DNA of 64,000 bases, from positions 1,296,297 to 1,360,296 of the forward strand of contig NZ_LR027848.1 in the NCBI RefSeq assembly GCF_900607235.1, in the 5' to 3' direction. A model generated the notes under the pieces. That model was not told where the DNA came from. It ran no database searches and saw only the letters and a program-made list of their open reading frames with translations. Of this stretch, positions 5,136 to 33,306 are shown piece after piece (within the stretch, counting starts at the first letter, position 1; the number at the start of each line of letters is the position of its first letter). The position numbers were made by a program, and so were the translations under genes. This DNA is from Olivibacter jilunii. GTDB lineage: Bacteria > Bacteroidota > Bacteroidia > Sphingobacteriales > Sphingobacteriaceae.

Positions 5136-8100
5136 ATGAGAGTAAACTTAAAAATCCACCTTGTAGCGATACTATGTACGCTGATAGTGGGCTATGAGCA
5201 AGCGTATGCACAGACGAAACGGATTGTCGGTCAGGTTGTTGATGCAACAACGAACGAAGTCTTGCCGGGCGTTACCATTACGCGCAAATCAACGGGAACA
5301 GCGGTACAGAGCGATCTGGAGGGGAAGTTTAGTTTAGATGCGGAACCGCAGGATGTGCTGATGGTAACCTATACGGGCTACACGCCAAAGGAAATTATTG
5401 TGGGGAAAGAAACCCGGCTCCGCATTAGCCTTGAAGTGAATGTGCAAACAATGGATGAAGTGGTGGTGGTAGGTTATGGAACACAGAGCCGATCGAACAT
5501 CACCGGTTCCATTGCTAAATTGGATAAAAAAGTACTTGAAAATGTACCGCGCGCAAACGTAGCTTCGGCCTTGCAGGGTGCTGTGCCGGGTTTACAAGTA
5601 GTTAATAAAACCGGGCAACCGGGTGCTGCTCCGATGTTGCGTCTACGAGGTGGCGCCTCCATCAATAATCCGGGAGGGCCCTTGGTTGTGGTTGATGGGG
5701 TTATACGCGATTTAAATGATATTGCTTCAGAGAATATCGAGTCGATGGAGTTATTGAAAGATGCTTCGGCCACCGCGATTTATGGCGCCAGGGCAAATAA
5801 TGGGGTTTTATTGGTGACTACGAAAACGGGTAAGGCCGGTACGGCGCAGATCACGTATAAGTTTACCGGTGGATTTAATCAACGGAGAAACGGTTATCGA
5901 TATATGAATGCCGGTGACTATATCTACTACACGCGTTTGGGTTATTTGAATGCGAACAGAACGGAGGCACAAGTGAATAGCTCCCGTGGGCTTGGACTGC
6001 TGACTGATCCGGCTAATTTAGCGACTTTTGATATTCGGCGGTATACACCGGAGCTTAACTATCTTGTAAACGAGGGCTGGGCTGTGCTGGATGACCCATA
6101 CGGCGGCCAAATTATTTATAAAGATCACGGTGGTGAGGTGGAGGATATTTTATTCAGAAACACCACAACGCAGGATCATTATGTCAATGTTACGGGCGGG
6201 AATGAACGGGGTAAGTATTTTGCCTCCTTTGATGCCTATAATGAAAAAGGGGTGATTGTGGGTTCGGATTATAAACGCTACTCGGCAGACGTAAATGGCT
6301 CGTACAAAATAAAACCTAATTTGGAGGTGTCTACGGGTGTTACGCTATCTACTTCCTCTCAGTATGGTGTTGCGGGGTCAGAAGTAAATGCGCTATATCG
6401 GACGCTGGCCATTTGGCCAACGTTCAATCCCTGGCTCGATGAAGCGAAGACTTTACCGAACCCCGGGAATGGGGTTAATGACGGGAACCCCTTGTATTGG
6501 TTATCACGTATCTCCCGAAAAAATGAAACCAATCGCGTCATTGTAAATGGCTCGTTGAAATGGGACATTCTTCCCGGCTTCTATTTTAAAGCTACTGCCA
6601 ATGCTTATATGCTCGAGCAGTTTAATGAGTCCTTTCAGAAGTCTACACAAACCTATGCTAACATCTTTTCGGATCCACCATCTATCGGTAGTACTTCCAG
6701 AGATGCTTACCGAAACTTGAATCGGGATTTTCAGACGCAGTTCAATGGCCTGTTCAATTATACCAAAACCTTTAACGATAAGCATAATTTCAATGCCATG
6801 GTTGGGGCGGAATACTACAATGTAAAAACGGATTACATGCAGGTGTACGGAAAAAATGCACCAACCGATGATATACCTACGGTAAATGCCTCGACGGTTT
6901 TTGTACCGGGAGATAACACCAGCACGCAGTCGGAATACCGCATTATATCTTCTTTGGGCCGCCTGGCCTATGACTTTGACGGTAAGTATTTAATTAATGC
7001 GGTCTATCGCTTGGATGCGGCGTCCAGCTTAGCGGCCGGAAATCGTACCGGATTCTTTCCGGGGATTTCAGCGGGTTGGAATATGCATCAGGAACACTTT
7101 TTTGCAGCATCGGCCCTATCGAAATATATCTCGACCTTCAAACCTAGGGTGAGTTATGGTGAGAACGGGAATATTTCGGGGCTGGGCAGGTACGAAGTGC
7201 AGGGAACCTATAGCCTGCAGACCAACTATAACGGTGTGGCGGGTTACTTAAACACCGAACCGGTTAATAGCAACTTGGCCTGGGAGAAGAGTAAAACGAC
7301 AGGGCTAGGATTGGATCTGGGGCTATTCGATAATAGAATAACGCTGTTGTTCGATTATTACGATCGCCGGACGAGTAACTTGTTGACCGATTTGTCTCTT
7401 CCAAGTTATATCGGGTTTTCTTCGATTACCACCAACCTGGGTACCTTACAAAATAAAGGATATGAGTTTGCTTTGAATGCGCAGCTACTGCGTAAGCCGG
7501 AAGGTATTAACCTGAATGTGGGTATCAATGCGGCTTTTGTTAAGAACAAAATTTTAGAATTACCCTATAATGGCAACGAGCATAATCGCCAGGGCGGCTT
7601 ACAGGTCTATGATCCGAAATCAGGTCAGGTCGTTTGGGTCGGTGGTTATCAGGAGGGGCAATCGATGGGCGACATTTATGCCTATAAACAGGTTTCTATT
7701 TTTAAGGATGAACAAGAGGTGCAACAGTTGGCCGGTAATCGAACCGATGCTATTGCCGGGATTACCGGACCTAATTTGCCGGCCGGGCCGAATGGACGCA
7801 TCACACCGGGCGACGTAAACTGGCTGGATGTAGATGGCAATAATATCATCGATTCGCGCGATCAGGTCTATATCGGTAATATTAATCCGAAATGGACGGG
7901 GGGATTTACAACCAATTTAAGCTATAAAGCCCTGAGCTTATTTACGAACTGGGAGTTTGCGTTGGGACATACCATCTATAACGATTTGGTAGCGCGGACC
8001 TTGGGAAATTATCAGGGAACTTTCAATTACATCGAGCTGCAGAAACAGGCTTGGTCTCCAACAAATACGGTAACGGATATTCCAAAAGTATATTTTGCCG

Positions 8101-8435
8101 ATCAGGTGGCGGGTTCGAAACAGAATTATACGCGCGGAAATAACGCAAACCCGGTGTTGAACAGTAATAATTCCAGGTTCTATGAAAAAGGGGATTACCT
8201 GGCTTTGCGTGAAATCACCTTGTCGTACGATCTGCCCAAAAGCCTATTATCAAAAACGCATTTGCTTTCGCAGGCTAGAGCATATGTAAGTGCTAACAAT
8301 TTGTTTTACATCACCGGGTTTTCGGGCCCGACGCCTGAGCCGCCGGTGAACGCGAGTAACCTCGCGACGGGAATATACAGTGGTACGTATCCAACGCCAC
8401 GCTCTTTTGTCATAGGTGTTCAGGTTTCATTTTAA
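5136..8435 (+). CDS. SusC/RagA-like TonB-dependent outer-membrane transporter (NanO-like)
   Basis: 1099 residues from the ATG at 5136. This start is chosen because it begins a clean signal peptide (MRVNLKIHLVAILCTL, cleavage after AYA) about 45 bp after the promoter; the open frame upstream overlaps nanR antisense. Domains in order: a carboxypeptidase-like beta sandwich (about 27-110), a TonB-box region MDEVVVVGYGTQ, a plug (about 120-230, with ANVASALQGAVPGLQV and LKDASATAIYGARANNG), then the 22-strand barrel ending in aromatic Phe (VQVSF). It should import sialic acid or sialoglycan pieces together with the SusD lipoprotein downstream. Comparable transporters of Tannerella and Bacteroides are called NanO. 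Confidence 0.93.
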   Translation: MRVNLKIHLVAILCTLIVGYEQAYAQTKRIVGQVVDATTNEVLPGVTITRKSTGTAVQSDLEGKFSLDAEPQDVLMVTYTGYTPKEIIVGKETRLRISLEVNVQTMDEVVVVGYGTQSRSNITGSIAKLDKKVLENVPRANVASALQGAVPGLQVVNKTGQPGAAPMLRLRGGASINNPGGPLVVVDGVIRDLNDIASENIESMELLKDASATAIYGARANNGVLLVTTKTGKAGTAQITYKFTGGFNQRRNGYRYMNAGDYIYYTRLGYLNANRTEAQVNSSRGLGLLTDPANLATFDIRRYTPELNYLVNEGWAVLDDPYGGQIIYKDHGGEVEDILFRNTTTQDHYVNVTGGNERGKYFASFDAYNEKGVIVGSDYKRYSADVNGSYKIKPNLEVSTGVTLSTSSQYGVAGSEVNALYRTLAIWPTFNPWLDEAKTLPNPGNGVNDGNPLYWLSRISRKNETNRVIVNGSLKWDILPGFYFKATANAYMLEQFNESFQKSTQTYANIFSDPPSIGSTSRDAYRNLNRDFQTQFNGLFNYTKTFNDKHNFNAMVGAEYYNVKTDYMQVYGKNAPTDDIPTVNASTVFVPGDNTSTQSEYRIISSLGRLAYDFDGKYLINAVYRLDAASSLAAGNRTGFFPGISAGWNMHQEHFFAASALSKYISTFKPRVSYGENGNISGLGRYEVQGTYSLQTNYNGVAGYLNTEPVNSNLAWEKSKTTGLGLDLGLFDNRITLLFDYYDRRTSNLLTDLSLPSYIGFSSITTNLGTLQNKGYEFALNAQLLRKPEGINLNVGINAAFVKNKILELPYNGNEHNRQGGLQVYDPKSGQVVWVGGYQEGQSMGDIYAYKQVSIFKDEQEVQQLAGNRTDAIAGITGPNLPAGPNGRITPGDVNWLDVDGNNIIDSRDQVYIGNINPKWTGGFTTNLSYKALSLFTNWEFALGHTIYNDLVARTLGNYQGTFNYIELQKQAWSPTNTVTDIPKVYFADQVAGSKQNYTRGNNANPVLNSNNSRFYEKGDYLALREITLSYDLPKSLLSKTHLLSQARAYVSANNLFYITGFSGPTPEPPVNASNLATGIYSGTYPTPRSFVIGVQVSF

Positions 8436-8526: not shown

Positions 8527-10062
8527 ATGAAAACTACAATGATCATATCGCTTATAGCGATCAGCATAGGTGCCACGGGCCTTACTTCGTGCAATAAAAA
8601 GCTGGATTTGGTACCGGTGAGTACCATCAGCGATGCCAGCTATTGGAAAACGCCGGATCAATTTGACGCCTTTGTTACAGGTTTGCATACCCGTTTCCGA
8701 GACCATGCGCAAGGTTTTATGTATCTGGGCGAACTGAGAGGCGATATTTTTGGAAATGATGCCGGTACCTCAGCCTCCTTTACCGGTGAAGCCTCGCAGG
8801 GCCTGGAACGGATGTGGTTACATAACCTTGACCTGGATAACCCCGGTGTAAGTAATTATGGAGATTTCTATAGTAACATCAATCAATTGAATTTATTGAT
8901 CAGCAAATTGAATAGCACAAATGTTGTAACCGAAGCAACCAAGCAATATTATTTGGGCATTGCCCATGGTATGCGGGCCTTTTACTATTTTCAATTGTAT
9001 CGTTCTTGGGGGAAGGCTATTCTGCAAACGGAGGCAATAGCGGATATTGATGTTGCTAATTTAGCAAAGGAAGCGAGCCCCGCTAATGAAGTATTGGACT
9101 TGGTGAAGCAGGATATTGAGACGTCGATAAGCCATTTTGGCTCGGATTATAGTATCCGAAGCAACAAAGCGTTCTGGTCAAAGTCTGCTTCGCTGATGCT
9201 GAAAGCGGAAGTTTTTTTATGGACCGCACACCGCGAGGGAGGGGCAGCAGACGCGGAGGTCGCTAAACAAGCGCTGCTTGAGGTACAAAGCAACTTGTCT
9301 TTGAACCTACTAACAAGCTATAGGGAAGTATTTGATGCCGCCAACAAAGGAAATGCGGAAATGATCTTTGTAATCAGGCATCAACTGAATGAAGCTACAT
9401 TAGGGTTTATCGGCAATTTTGTTCCGCAAACGGGTTTGATTGCGAATTTCTATGATTCGCTTGAAAACAGGCAATTCAGTGTAACGGCCGATAATTATGG
9501 CGGTATACTGCGCGCCCCCACTAAAATACAGACCTATAGAAAATTTGAGGAGGACGATACGCGAAAAAATACCAGTATCCAGGCGGCCTATGAAAAGGAT
9601 AACGAGGGAAAATACCGTATGGCGGGTTGTTTCCTGAGAAAATTTCAGGGCGAACAGAATGCAGGAATGAGGGCCTATACCAATGATTATCCGATTTATC
9701 GATACGCTGATTTACTTCTGTTGCTGGCGGAAGCAAAAGCGATCTTGGGCGAGAATCCGGCCGACGAAATAAATCAGGTCCGTCAAAGAGCCTATGGAAG
9801 TAATTATCAAGCTGCCGTACACGGCTATCCCAATCAACTTGTGGACACTAATCCTGCGGAGGCCATCTTGCAAGAACGCTTTTTTGAGTTTGTGGGAGAG
9901 GGGAAGCGCTGGTATGATTTGCGTCGTTTTGGTGATGCTTTTGTTTATAAGTACACCGGGCTTCCTGCTTCCGATGCGTATAAGTTATACTGGCCGATTG
10001 ATCGGAATACCTTAACAAATAACCGATCGCTCGCGCAGACTGATGGCTATTCGCAATTTTAG
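8527..10062 (+). CDS. SusD/RagB-like surface lipoprotein (NanU-like)
   Basis: 511 residues. The signal peptide ends in a lipobox, with Cys at about residue 22 (GLTSC). The remainder is the SusD fold: N-terminal TPR helices (YLGIAHGMRAFYYFQLYRSWG) and the C-terminal segment with YRYADLLLLLAEAKA and the signature ERFFEFVGEGKRWYDLRR. The protein should cap the SusC barrel on the cell surface and bind the substrate; by context this is free or oligosaccharide-bound sialic acid, as for NanU. The gap to susC is 91 bp without a clear second promoter, and nanA follows after 19 bp. Confidence 0.93.
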   Translation: MKTTMIISLIAISIGATGLTSCNKKLDLVPVSTISDASYWKTPDQFDAFVTGLHTRFRDHAQGFMYLGELRGDIFGNDAGTSASFTGEASQGLERMWLHNLDLDNPGVSNYGDFYSNINQLNLLISKLNSTNVVTEATKQYYLGIAHGMRAFYYFQLYRSWGKAILQTEAIADIDVANLAKEASPANEVLDLVKQDIETSISHFGSDYSIRSNKAFWSKSASLMLKAEVFLWTAHREGGAADAEVAKQALLEVQSNLSLNLLTSYREVFDAANKGNAEMIFVIRHQLNEATLGFIGNFVPQTGLIANFYDSLENRQFSVTADNYGGILRAPTKIQTYRKFEEDDTRKNTSIQAAYEKDNEGKYRMAGCFLRKFQGEQNAGMRAYTNDYPIYRYADLLLLLAEAKAILGENPADEINQVRQRAYGSNYQAAVHGYPNQLVDTNPAEAILQERFFEFVGEGKRWYDLRRFGDAFVYKYTGLPASDAYKLYWPIDRNTLTNNRSLAQTDGYSQF

Positions 10063-10081
10063 ATTGAGTGTACGAAATTAA

Positions 10082-29462: not shown

Positions 29463-31715
29463 ATGATTTTAGAATTTGCCATCAACGGAAAAAAACAAGG
29501 GCCCTTTTACGTTGGATACACACCTGCGCAATGTACATTGCGGTTGTCGGACGGTGTGCCGGGTGGCCTCCCTGTGACTATTGTGCTCAGCAATAACGAT
29601 CCTTTAACGGGTGGCCAATTAGTATTTTACCCCAATCTTAGCTCACCTGTAAGCGAAACATTAACATTACAGGTTCCTGGAGATGGGGCTACGGTTAGTT
29701 ATTATATTGCTGGTAAGCCGGATGTTCCAAGTACGCAATACAATGATGCCGCTATCAATTTCAAGCACAATGACCAATCTGTTCGCATTATTAAATTCAC
29801 GGTTAGAGTGCGGAAGAATGCAAACTCACTGACAACTATAGAGCGTGATAAATTTTTAAATGCTTTTGTCAACGTTTTGCTGTCGGGTAATTATCAGAGC
29901 TTCCTTGATATGCATAATGAAGCAGCGAATAGTCAAATTCATAACCGGGCAGCTTTTTTACCTTGGCATCGTATGTATCTCCTTGATTTAGAAAGGCACT
30001 TGCACGAATTTGATAAAAGTGTGATGATTCCTTATTGGGATTTTCAATCACCGGCACCAAATGTTTTCACCCTTGATTTTATGGGGGTCCCCACAAGTTC
30101 GACAGTAGGTGAATTGCAATTTTCTGTTAATAATCCCCTCAACAACTGGTATATCAATAATTTGCCACCTTTGGCGAGAATACCGCGATTCAACGCGCAA
30201 CAAAGTCGTGCAAATGTTGAAGCGCGAAGTACTACACTTGGCAGATTGCCTGGCTTCCGGCAATTTGCGAGCATGGAAGGTAACCCACATGGCTCCGCTC
30301 ATACATCTTTCACGGGGCCGGTAAATTTTGCACCTACTGCTCCTCGTGATCCTTTGTTTTTCATGATACATGCGAATGTCGACCGTATCTGGGCAGAATG
30401 GCAAAGCTTGGGTACCGGTAACACGCTTTACGATTCAACTAATATAAATGCTTATAGCCCCGAAACCAATAGATCGCCAAACCCACGGATTGGTGACTAC
30501 TTGGACGATACTATGTGGCCTTGGAACGGTGTTACGGGCGGAGACCGTCCGCCCACCGCTCCTGGTGGCCCCTTCATCGCTTCGGTATTTACTAATTATC
30601 CGGGACCGACACCTAAAGTTATCGATACGATTGATTATCAGGGTAGGCTTACTAACAAAAGTCTTTATTTTGATTACGATGCCATTCACTTTGTCAATAC
30701 GGTAGTTCCCCAGAATATATCAGCCATGTCTACAGAAAAAGCAGGGGCAGCGGAAAGCCTAAAAGCAGATATTAAAAAGGCGAAAGATCAAAACCGTCGC
30801 GCCCTTGAATCTTTTGTAAAATCAACCGATACAAATGATCTGATGGCTTTCTTAAATAATATGGATATGTTAACAGACCCTGAAAGCATAAAAAAAGCAA
30901 TTGAAATCCTCAGAAATAGGAAAAATGAAACGGGCATCAGAGTATCGGCTTTGGTTAAATTATTGGAAGCGATTTCGCTGGACGAAAACTTGATAAAATA
31001 TGTGCTAAGCTTGTTGACGGACAAAAGAGAGCCATTGGATTTAAGAAAAGAGGCGTTGAGAACCATTGAAACAATGAGTTTCACGTCACCTGTTTTTCCT
31101 GCTTTGCAACCGGAGATCATTCAGGCATTTAGGGGCCTGATAAACGATTATGATCACGAAATCCGTAGAGATGCCATTGCTTATCTTGCTAAATCGAACG
31201 ATGAATTCCTTCAACGAACATTGATCAATGGGCTTCAAAATCACGAAGAAGCCGTTGTCTCGGAGGAGATGGCTGTACATTTTTTAGGTTATGACATCCA
31301 CGCTGGCATTTATCCACTACTACAGAAAATCGTAAAAACCTCAAGTAATGATAACAGTCGTGCAGAAGCACTTTATTTGCTTGCCGGCGATCCGCAGGCA
31401 AAGGAATTGTTGCGGAGCGTGTTCAGCGACAGAAATGAGCTATTCGACGTCAGGAAGAATAGCTTACTGGCATTAAAACAGCAGTCGCCGGAGGATTTTC
31501 TTGAGCTTGCACAAAAAGCGGTGCTTGATAGTGATGAAAGCGAAAATATACGCGCAATAAGTTTCAATGTGTTAAGCCATTATTGGGCAGTAAGCGGTAA
31601 ACCGGATGAAAAGTTTTTGGATCAAGTGAAGAAGGACCTTCCTAGTTTACCAAAGGAGCTAGCAGCAGGAATTACTTCGTTCTTGGAAAACAGGGATGAA
31701 GAACCCGAGCGGTAG
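29463..31715 (+). CDS. Tyrosinase (type 3 copper oxidase) fused to HEAT-like repeats
   Basis: 750 residues with no signal peptide. Residues 1-125 look like an Ig-like/beta domain. The tyrosinase core (about 130-330) has all six copper ligands. CuA is His151 (DMHNEA), His160 (QIHNR) and His169 (FLPWHR), with eight residues between each. CuB is His276 and His280 (NPHGSAH) and His303 (FFMIHANVDRIWAEW). From about 440 to 745 the sequence is all helical with HEAT-like repeats (EIRRDAIAYLAKSND; NSRAEALYLLAGDP; DVRKNSLLALKQQ). The enzyme oxidises phenols or diphenols; the repeats may bind a partner or polymer. A copper-chaperone-like gene follows after 46 bp. Confidence 0.9.
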   Translation: MILEFAINGKKQGPFYVGYTPAQCTLRLSDGVPGGLPVTIVLSNNDPLTGGQLVFYPNLSSPVSETLTLQVPGDGATVSYYIAGKPDVPSTQYNDAAINFKHNDQSVRIIKFTVRVRKNANSLTTIERDKFLNAFVNVLLSGNYQSFLDMHNEAANSQIHNRAAFLPWHRMYLLDLERHLHEFDKSVMIPYWDFQSPAPNVFTLDFMGVPTSSTVGELQFSVNNPLNNWYINNLPPLARIPRFNAQQSRANVEARSTTLGRLPGFRQFASMEGNPHGSAHTSFTGPVNFAPTAPRDPLFFMIHANVDRIWAEWQSLGTGNTLYDSTNINAYSPETNRSPNPRIGDYLDDTMWPWNGVTGGDRPPTAPGGPFIASVFTNYPGPTPKVIDTIDYQGRLTNKSLYFDYDAIHFVNTVVPQNISAMSTEKAGAAESLKADIKKAKDQNRRALESFVKSTDTNDLMAFLNNMDMLTDPESIKKAIEILRNRKNETGIRVSALVKLLEAISLDENLIKYVLSLLTDKREPLDLRKEALRTIETMSFTSPVFPALQPEIIQAFRGLINDYDHEIRRDAIAYLAKSNDEFLQRTLINGLQNHEEAVVSEEMAVHFLGYDIHAGIYPLLQKIVKTSSNDNSRAEALYLLAGDPQAKELLRSVFSDRNELFDVRKNSLLALKQQSPEDFLELAQKAVLDSDESENIRAISFNVLSHYWAVSGKPDEKFLDQVKKDLPSLPKELAAGITSFLENRDEEPER

Positions 31716-31761
31716 GTAAACAAATGAACGGCATTATTGCAATTTCTATCGTGAATAGGTC

Positions 31762-33306
31762 ATGGAAGAATCTATATTTAGGCAACGGGTGGATGAACTT
31801 AGAAGTTCATCCAAACCCTATCGGCAGCTGACGTCTTTATTGAAAGAAGAACATGTTGTTTATAGAAATAAAAGTGCAAATGCGGTTACCCGAATGAGAG
31901 GTTATGTTTTGTACTCATTCTTCTTAAAAGGTTTACCGGACAGTGCGCTAATTTTTGTCTATGAAGAATTGTCATCAAGTAGAGAAGCTTATCTGGTGGC
32001 TGCCGCTTCACTAGCTTTAAGAAAAGCTGAAAAAAAGCGCCCTGTGATGGCCGACTATTTGTTAAAAGCCCTTCAAAATGTCAAATTTTTTGACAACTAT
32101 TTTTCATTTGATCACTATTATCAACAATGGCCTTTAGACAACAAAACAACGGCCGTTGCAGAAATTCTGAGTACCATGAAATGGTTGGGTGCTTACGCGA
32201 AAACATGCCTGCCCACACTTAGAACCCTTGCCGCCAATGGCGACAATAAGCTAAGCCTGAAGGTTGTCACCGCTATAGGCGAAACCATAAAAATAATTGA
32301 AAATGACAATACTCCGATAGAAGATTGCTGTGGTAACATTCCTTCATTTCTTGGAGCAGATCTAAATTTATCGTTGAGTAAAAAAAGAGGTGTCAGGATG
32401 TTTAGGGAGATCGTGCTTGAGAATCAGGACGGCCGTCAGGCCCACCTCCACGATTTTACTGATGGGCGGCCCACATTGGTGGCTTTTTTTTATACTAGAT
32501 GTGATAACCCGCTTAAGTGTTCGCTAACCATTACAAACTTAGCGGCAATCCAACGACAATTGATGAAGGAAAGTTGGGGCCAAAGTGTTGCGCTTTTAGC
32601 CATAAGTTATGATTCTTTTTATGACCTTTCTTATCGGATTAAAAATTATGGAGTATCGAGAGGGATTGTATTCAACAAGAACATGCAAATGTTTAGGGCG
32701 GTACCGGATATAAATCTAGTGAAAGATTATTTTGAGTTAGGCGTTAACTATACTGGCGAAGCAGTAAATCGCCATGTAATCGAACTTTACATATTGGATA
32801 AAAATGGCCGGATTGTAAAGGGGTTTCAACGAGGTGAAATGGATAATACAAACATCATCGGTCATTTAAGAAGCATGGCTCTTTCAGCAGATAATGCGGG
32901 AGCTCGATGGCTTTCCACTGTTAAGGATGGATTTAAAGGCGTAACCTCAGTGCTTGTTCCGTTATTTATTATGCTCCTTCCAAAATGCCCCTTTTGCTTT
33001 GCCGCTTATTTGAGCATGTTTGGGATAGCTGGCATGCAGTTTATGCCTTATGTTAAATTTATTTTTCCCTTACTTGTAGTCGCGATGGCAATCAATATGT
33101 TTGCACTATATAGAATGGGTGTGCAAAGAAATAGCTTTTTTCCGTTGTATTTATGTGTCGTCGGATCCGCGATAGTTGTAACTTTTGGATATTTTATGCC
33201 GACGAAACTCGCATTGATTATTGGACTAACTTTGCTTTTTTTAAGCGCGGTTCTAAACGCTTTGCCTCATCACGTTTACCTTAAATTGAAATCGAGAATA
33301 GGCTGA
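31762..33306 (+). CDS. SCO1/SenC-like copper protein with N-terminal helical repeats and C-terminal membrane domain
   Basis: 514 residues. Residues 1-190 are helical and HEAT-like. About 205-365 is a thioredoxin-fold SCO domain: FFYTRCDNPLKCSL with Cys247 and Cys253 (C-x5-C, longer than the classical CxxxC), and the third copper ligand His338 in VNRHVIELY. The C-terminus has four membrane helices, and the first contains PKCPFC (Cys409, Cys412), a MerC/MerT-like metal pair. It is encoded 46 bp after the tyrosinase, so copper loading of that enzyme is the natural inference. With no signal peptide, the SCO domain is predicted on the same side as the tyrosinase, perhaps the cytoplasm. Confidence 0.82.
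   Translation: MEESIFRQRVDELRSSSKPYRQLTSLLKEEHVVYRNKSANAVTRMRGYVLYSFFLKGLPDSALIFVYEELSSSREAYLVAAASLALRKAEKKRPVMADYLLKALQNVKFFDNYFSFDHYYQQWPLDNKTTAVAEILSTMKWLGAYAKTCLPTLRTLAANGDNKLSLKVVTAIGETIKIIENDNTPIEDCCGNIPSFLGADLNLSLSKKRGVRMFREIVLENQDGRQAHLHDFTDGRPTLVAFFYTRCDNPLKCSLTITNLAAIQRQLMKESWGQSVALLAISYDSFYDLSYRIKNYGVSRGIVFNKNMQMFRAVPDINLVKDYFELGVNYTGEAVNRHVIELYILDKNGRIVKGFQRGEMDNTNIIGHLRSMALSADNAGARWLSTVKDGFKGVTSVLVPLFIMLLPKCPFCFAAYLSMFGIAGMQFMPYVKFIFPLLVVAMAINMFALYRMGVQRNSFFPLYLCVVGSAIVVTFGYFMPTKLALIIGLTLLFLSAVLNALPHHVYLKLKSRIG

Follow-up and report, generated by a model that had tools for sequence, protein, structure and literature searches.

The window analysed here is a stretch of 64,000 nucleotides from Olivibacter jilunii (contig NZ_LR027848.1, forward-strand positions 1,296,297 to 1,360,296), and it contains a pair of genes for a tyrosinase and an SCO protein. 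The first open reading frame (29463-31715, forward strand) encodes the tyrosinase, a type-3 copper enzyme of 750 amino acids. The second (31762-33306, forward strand) encodes the SCO protein of 514 amino acids and follows after a gap of 46 bases. This pair is the fused form of a three-gene operon in which tyrosinase, HEAT-repeat protein and SCO protein are encoded separately; the two-gene form occurs only in the window and in genome G244. A preliminary description, drawn from the letters alone, had reported a tyrosinase with all six copper-binding histidines, no signal peptide and HEAT-like C-terminal repeats, followed by a protein with a helical region, an SCO domain (C-x5-C plus His338) and a membrane part with CPFC. 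These features are indeed present, with the residues at the places given, and are distributed as follows.

29463-29798, forward strand: N-terminal beta-rich tyrosinase domain, residues 1-112 (strands in the model; common to the operon tyrosinases)
29799-30707, forward strand: type-3 copper catalytic domain, residues 113-415 (Pfam, structure match, His ligands)
30741-31691, forward strand: HEAT-like helical repeats, residues 427-743 (Pfam and model; a separate gene in most relatives)
31762-32328, forward strand: N-terminal helical region of the SCO protein, residues 1-189 (model, helices over 3-181)
32326-32331, forward strand: C189-C190 pair preceding the SCO domain (C189 in 28 and C190 in 24 of 28 aligned proteins)
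32386-32886, forward strand: SCO domain, residues 209-375 (Pfam, structure match)
32500-32520, forward strand: C247-x5-C253, candidate Cu(I) site together with His338 (alignment)
32773-32775, forward strand: His338, aligned with the conserved SCO histidine (alignment)
32941-33276, forward strand: MerC-like four-helix membrane domain, residues 394-505 (hydropathy, profile comparison)
32986-32997, forward strand: C409-P-F-C412 within transmembrane segment 1 (aligns with the CPAC motif of a MerC from Variovorax)

The first protein has the Pfam Tyrosinase domain (PF00264) at residues 143-315 with an expectation value (E) of 4e-31, above the cut-off, and HEAT_2 in two stretches, the better at 619-695 (E 1e-10). 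Its copper histidines are residues 151, 160, 169, 276, 280 and 303. All six are kept in each of the 24 aligned operon tyrosinases, which comprise the window, G244 and 22 of the 28 loci described below; L083, L087, L096, L098, L105 and L106 have no whole tyrosinase frame and were omitted. The structural model (predicted local distance difference test, pLDDT, 77) matches the Bacillus megaterium tyrosinase 4p6r_A with Z 23.9 and a root mean square deviation (rmsd) of 2.6 over 240 residues, and contains helices across 427-743, mostly at pLDDT 60-85. The two-site set of six histidines, the score and the catalytic fold thus place the enzyme within PF00264. The beta-rich N-terminal domain occurs twice in the exported tyrosinases of Daejeonella and Desertivirga. 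Directly after the first CuB histidine (30288-30305, residues 276-281) stands Gly277, and glycine is found here in 22 of 24 operon-type tyrosinases. At the matching position the B. megaterium enzyme has an asparagine, N205; with glycine in its place, monophenolase activity is uncertain.

The second protein contains the Pfam SCO1-SenC domain (PF02630) at residues 219-297, with 28.1 bits against a cut-off of 22.8. Its SCO model (pLDDT 84) is closest to structure 4hde, with Z 19.1 and rmsd 2.5 over 162 residues, and SCO structures top the ranking; the best row that is neither SCO nor SCO-like has Z 13.9. Profile score and fold therefore identify it as an SCO protein. Both cysteines and the distal histidine of the family are there. 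The cysteines are spaced C-x5-C, the two extra residues being visible in the alignment with the SCO family, whose spacing is C-x3-C. C-x5-C and His338 are present in all 28 aligned SCO proteins (the window, G244 and 26 of the 28 loci; L105 and L106 were not included). As the cysteine motif formed part of the search pattern, its conservation is to some extent built in, which does not apply to His338.

The membrane domain of the SCO protein has CPFC in the first of four hydrophobic segments. Pfam MerC (PF03203) matches residues 413-499 with 14.6 of the 27.6 bits needed, and the membrane domains of relatives score 15.1-18.7 bits or do not match. Since the score lies under the gathering cut-off, the domain is named MerC-like and is not filed as MerC. 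In hhalign, 27 CPxC sequences gave 89.5% against four MerC proteins and 87.4% against the two from Variovorax. The match spans about 90 columns, places CPxC on the CPAC of L236 and has E 2e-6 to 4e-6 in single comparisons; reversed controls gave 0.3-0.7%. Against two Bacteroidota MerC-domain proteins alone, the CPxC profile gave 4.8%. The domain thus combines profile similarity to MerC with CPxC in the first helix. One Variovorax MerC (L237) itself has no CPxC; it adjoins frames that read by eye as MerT and MerA. No mer genes were recognised beside the membrane domain in the window. The MerC-like domain is present in 17 of the 28 aligned SCO proteins. PpoB2 (PF09948) was rejected as a relative of the CPxC part, with hhalign 0.2% and no Pfam match of the window proteins up to E 1.

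The thioredoxin fold of SCO domains is shared with ResA and the peroxiredoxins (Z 13-14). The SCO protein might then be a thiol-disulfide partner, TlpA-, ResA- or peroxiredoxin-like, that protects or reduces the tyrosinase and delivers no copper, with the CPFC part as a DsbB-like electron carrier. A DsbB chain does match residues 361-456 weakly in phmmer (E 0.0036). In the structure ranking SCO proteins nevertheless come first (19.1 against 13.9), the SCO histidine is invariant in the alignment, and the usual neighbour is a copper enzyme. DsbB (PF02600) found no profile support as a relative of the CPxC part either, with hhalign 0.9% from three DsbB sequences only, against 87-90% for MerC. A purely redox role is accordingly judged unlikely.

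In the same family, 301 genomes were searched. Relatives that cover nearly the whole SCO protein were found in G244, which has the two adjacent genes in the same form as the window, and in Arcticibacter svalbardensis, where tyrosinase, HEAT and SCO are separate genes. Desertivirga and Daejeonella have SCO relatives without the membrane part. A single-protein search of genome contigs returned no matches; a search with a five-row alignment did find relatives. This profile scan, of 84,980 species genomes, gave 60 pattern matches, among which 28 loci encode a relative. With home-made profiles, the order tyrosinase-HEAT-SCO on one strand was seen in 24 of the 28 loci, from Bacteroidota, Acidobacteriota, Proteobacteria, Actinobacteria and one Chloroflexi metagenome-assembled genome (MAG). 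If the one locus that a contig end cuts upstream is set aside, the count is 24 of 27; among these 24, L096 has broken frames and L098 is partly masked. L083, which is cut upstream, retains HEAT and SCO, and L105 is a remnant. In 13 operons measured from the first possible starts, intergenic distances range from a 42-base gap to a 26-base overlap. Sequence distances of the three proteins correlate across the 24 loci (r 0.84-0.92, 0 of 2000 permutations), to which shared descent contributes. No neighbour outside the operon recurred by eye across the ten loci listed; in the window the flanking genes encode an AraC-type regulator (DUF6597, helix-turn-helix) and a DUF2911 protein.

Plasmids gave the same association. 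Among 72,556 plasmid records, 46 had some tyrosinase match and six covered at least 80% of the 416-residue query; the SCO protein matched six records, and they are the same six. These include near-copies (two of Rhizobium gallicum, two of Bradyrhizobium barranii). The four plasmid loci that were opened each have the three genes in a row, confirmed by profile. A tyrosinase profile run on 144 genomes of a Bradyrhizobium family gave one new full-length match, G1012, which has both partners, and in 149 Acidobacteriota genomes the only full-length match was the locus already known; the remaining matches in both sets fell below 90 bits, against at least 500 for full-length ones. In the O. jilunii genome the window tyrosinase matched only itself, so that no second copy was found. 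The operon is therefore real and conserved. It is also undescribed within the open-licence literature searched, where no tyrosinase with an SCO, SenC, HEAT-repeat or MerC partner was found. One such paper lists co-occurring copper proteins of beta-proteobacteria, and its relevant passages name no tyrosinase-SCO pair (PMC6769254).

Some details of the plasmid loci are recorded separately. Large plasmids of Rhizobium, Bradyrhizobium and Paraburkholderia carry the operon (L229-L232), and five of the six records are typed as conjugative. In three of the four opened loci, the annotation calls the HEAT gene product 'hypothetical'. On the B. barranii plasmid the tyrosinase is broken and the HEAT and SCO genes are still there.

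The CPxC domain is also encoded by small stand-alone genes. Nine such proteins were read; they have 151-219 amino acids, and eight have CC or CxC near the N-terminus. Seven directly adjoin leaderless tyrosinases of other types (G487, G364, G336, G264, G017, G520 and G567). In 295 genomes of the class, the CPxC profile gave six matches. All five good ones lie in genomes with a tyrosinase, which 14 of the 295 have (P 1e-7; 2e-6 without the window's genome). The sixth, in G186, covers 50 residues in a genome without a tyrosinase and was omitted from this count; with it kept, P is 7e-7. In G084 the good match and the tyrosinase are far apart in the genome. G567 has a second CPFC MerC-like protein (L116 9089-9568, C49), which heads a CO dehydrogenase-type cluster with flavin (coxM), iron-sulphur (coxS) and molybdenum (coxL) subunits, CoxG, a MoxR-like ATPase, CoxE and an XdhC/CoxI-like protein. 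Its large subunit carries AYRCSFR, the sequence that marks form-I CO dehydrogenase, whose active site contains Mo and Cu. The CPxC partner is thus found with a second kind of copper enzyme. The XdhC/CoxI-like protein of this cluster ends in a YHS domain.

Among Bacteroidota tyrosinases, membrane partners were found only with leaderless ones. Leaders were called by N-terminal hydropathy and reading (G017 and G487b from an internal Met) for 36 Bacteroidota tyrosinase genes that pass the PF00264 cut-off, taken from the 295 and 301 genomes, some of which are shared; G616 fell below the cut-off and was dropped. Tyrosinases with a leader, lipobox, twin-arginine translocation (Tat)-like start or anchor were classed as exported, and partners were detected by scanning stretches 5 to 20 kb long with home-made profiles. 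A membrane partner is adjacent or in the operon for 14 of the 22 leaderless enzymes (10 CPxC, four PpoB2-family), against none of the 14 exported ones (Fisher 9e-5; 2e-4 without the window and G244; 6e-4 with near-copies merged). For CPxC partners only, the values are 0.003 and, without near-copies, window and G244, 0.03. Inside the operon class, leader and loss of CPxC in the SCO protein are not significantly associated (MerC-like part in 17 of 26 leaderless and 0 of two leader-bearing proteins, Fisher 0.15).

These data bear on where the operon works. Passages of two papers describe SCO proteins as working outside the cytosol (PMC7558416, PMC3817396), and in the Desertivirga and Daejeonella operons, which lie beside type II secretion genes, hydropathy indicates a leader on each of the three proteins. 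The tyrosinase might then reach the envelope by an unrecognised route and be loaded by the SCO domain in the periplasm, as cytochrome oxidase is. Neither window protein has a hydrophobic leader at its N-terminus, though, nor was a twin-arginine start seen in them by eye; 26 of 28 SCO proteins and 18 of 24 operon tyrosinases are likewise leaderless, and positive charges, read from the sequence, lie before the first and after the second and fourth membrane segments. Loading in the periplasm is thus quite improbable, more so than the redox role. The exported versions of all three proteins (L061, L062) have an SCO protein without the membrane part; T2SSE, T2SSF and N_methyl domains, of type II secretion and pseudopilin genes, were scanned in L062, and Daejeonella (L062) has three tyrosinases.

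The direction of transport is a related question, since the sequence does not reveal it and no energy-coupling domain was found by Pfam scan in either protein. The unit could in principle export or buffer copper or quinones as a detoxification system, with the tyrosinase consuming phenols and the membrane part exporting. The nearest characterised relative, MerC, takes metal up, and is named an Hg(II) transporter in a passage of PMC5715351. The membrane domain is also absent from both loci with exported tyrosinases, a weak point, since it is absent from nine leaderless ones too. Of the explanations considered, detoxification is the least probable.

The preferred reading, with a probability of about 0.63, is that the unit is a dedicated copper-maturation set on the cytosolic side, serving an intracellular tyrosinase. 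The unit probably loads the metal into the tyrosinase; import of copper by the MerC-like part is suggested less firmly. The SCO protein would be anchored in the inner membrane, its N- and C-terminus facing the cytosol, as hydropathy and charge suggest, and the HEAT part, given its fusion to the enzyme, may hold the apo-tyrosinase. By analogy with the families, Cu(I) would first be bound by the SCO domain at its C-x5-C/His site and from there reach the six-His site. The CPxC helix might carry copper inward across the membrane, in the way that MerC transports Hg(II). Operon members that lack the membrane part must obtain copper from another source. A fuller version, held more tentatively and short of even odds, is that a MerC-like importer hands Cu(I) to a cytosolic SCO domain and then to the HEAT-held enzyme, and that the stand-alone forms supply further copper enzymes of the cytosol, among them the Mo-Cu CO dehydrogenase.

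Several observations weigh against maturation in the cytosol. According to a passage of PMC7558416, SCO chaperones act in oxidase assembly outside the cytosol, and cytosolic copper enzymes are almost absent in bacteria. The proposed topology is based on hydropathy and charge only. Among the 24 operon tyrosinases, 18 start without a hydrophobic stretch, two have clear leaders and four (L090, L092, L093, L095) have leaders that depend on the start codon chosen. Neither CPxC nor PpoB2 lies beside eight of the 22 leaderless tyrosinases; one of the eight is followed by a DsbD_2 membrane protein. The MerC-like part is missing from nine of the 26 leaderless SCO proteins, and import by this route is therefore dispensable in some operons. 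A Nitrospira MAG (L087) encodes the SCO protein (6971-8137), and this tyrosinase was not found in its available genome sequence. Finally, L106 encodes a C-x5-C SCO protein of another build, without the helical region and with no tyrosinase or HEAT gene upstream.

The core idea of the preliminary description, copper maturation of the tyrosinase, stands, and two of its arguments need correction. It had suggested that repeats in both proteins allow them to dock; by profile comparison, the helical regions of the two show no detectable relationship (hhalign 0.2%), and a stronger argument for contact is that the HEAT gene is fused to the tyrosinase. It had also set the pair against caddie proteins as the normal route. 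Caddies are known, but this contrast omitted PpoB2 as well as tyrosinases that are helper-free or self-shielded. That the second protein may load copper fits with an SCO domain joined to a CPxC membrane part. The genes proved to form a recurring unit, which has three genes in most loci. The description had proposed a genome-wide check of co-occurrence and held that rare adjacency would count against it; the order kept in 24 of 28 loci and the shared six plasmid records answer this, and because the pair recurs together far beyond the genus, the genes are not rarely adjacent.

If the fuller version is true, the operon would represent a new class of bacterial copper importer and an SCO protein working in the cytosol, and it would be a general solution for cytosolic copper enzymes. 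More immediately, a widespread operon in which an apparently cytosolic copper enzyme has its own SCO chaperone makes copper supply testable in a small gene set, and it offers partner proteins for the production of active tyrosinases.

Other genes were seen beside leaderless or other tyrosinases. At L145, a leaderless tyrosinase (8912-10072) precedes a gene for a DsbD_2-type membrane protein, which may represent a third type of membrane partner. Proteins of about 140-160 amino acids that share a W-x-YRS motif form a family found repeatedly near leaderless tyrosinases; four members scanned had no Pfam match above cut-off. Genes of the LodA lysine-oxidase type, recognised with Pfam, adjoin tyrosinases at four loci, with a LodB-like flavoprotein at L115 and L228.

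L063 9723-10145: W-x-YRS family member
L066 9016-9441: W-x-YRS family member
L073 10267-10683: W-x-YRS family member
L115 2532-2993: W-x-YRS family member
L146 3842-4321: W-x-YRS family member
L115 3057-5210: LodA-type lysine-oxidase-like gene
L146 4290-6491: LodA-type lysine-oxidase-like gene
L148 8650-10827: LodA-type lysine-oxidase-like gene
L228 10026-12041: LodA-type lysine-oxidase-like gene

Two known tyrosinase systems resemble the operon. In Streptomyces, MelC1 and MelC2 likewise form a two-gene operon of tyrosinase and copper helper, and the catalytic fold is the same. As described in passages of PMC9454253 and PMC3817396, the caddie, unlike the SCO protein of the window, is small and beta-rich, occludes the active site and is sometimes Tat-exported with the enzyme; upstream of the window tyrosinase there is no free open reading frame of at least 100 amino acids that could be a MelC1-like gene. 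Some tyrosinases, according to a passage of PMC9454253, do without a helper or are shielded by a domain at their C-terminus. The PpoB1/PpoB2 pair of Marinomonas mediterranea also places a tyrosinase and a membrane protein in one operon, and a passage of PMC2855505 involves PpoB2 in specific copper transfer to the tyrosinase. PpoB2 belongs to COG5486 (Pfam PF09948, 'Copper chaperone'), a family whose genes are likewise found downstream of leaderless tyrosinases in Bacteroidota. Unlike the window proteins, the four PF09948 members that were scanned lack SCO and HEAT domains, and they show no profile relation to the CPxC domain (0.2%).

The individual domains point to other systems. MerC resembles the membrane domain by profile, with CPxC on the CPAC of one Variovorax protein; the window domain differs in its sub-cut-off Pfam score, in its occurrence fused to SCO or beside copper enzymes, and in having no recognised mer genes. 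SCO1/SenC of cytochrome oxidase has the same fold, two cysteines and distal histidine, whereas the window protein has C-x5-C, is leaderless, is fused to helical and membrane parts and is linked to a tyrosinase. The methanethiol oxidase operon differs in its enzyme and its MauG partner, and the passages of PMC5739008 that describe it mention no HEAT, MerC-like part or tyrosinase. It does hold an SCO1-SenC gene for which a role in maturation was proposed there, and in both operons an SCO gene thus accompanies a copper enzyme other than cytochrome oxidase.

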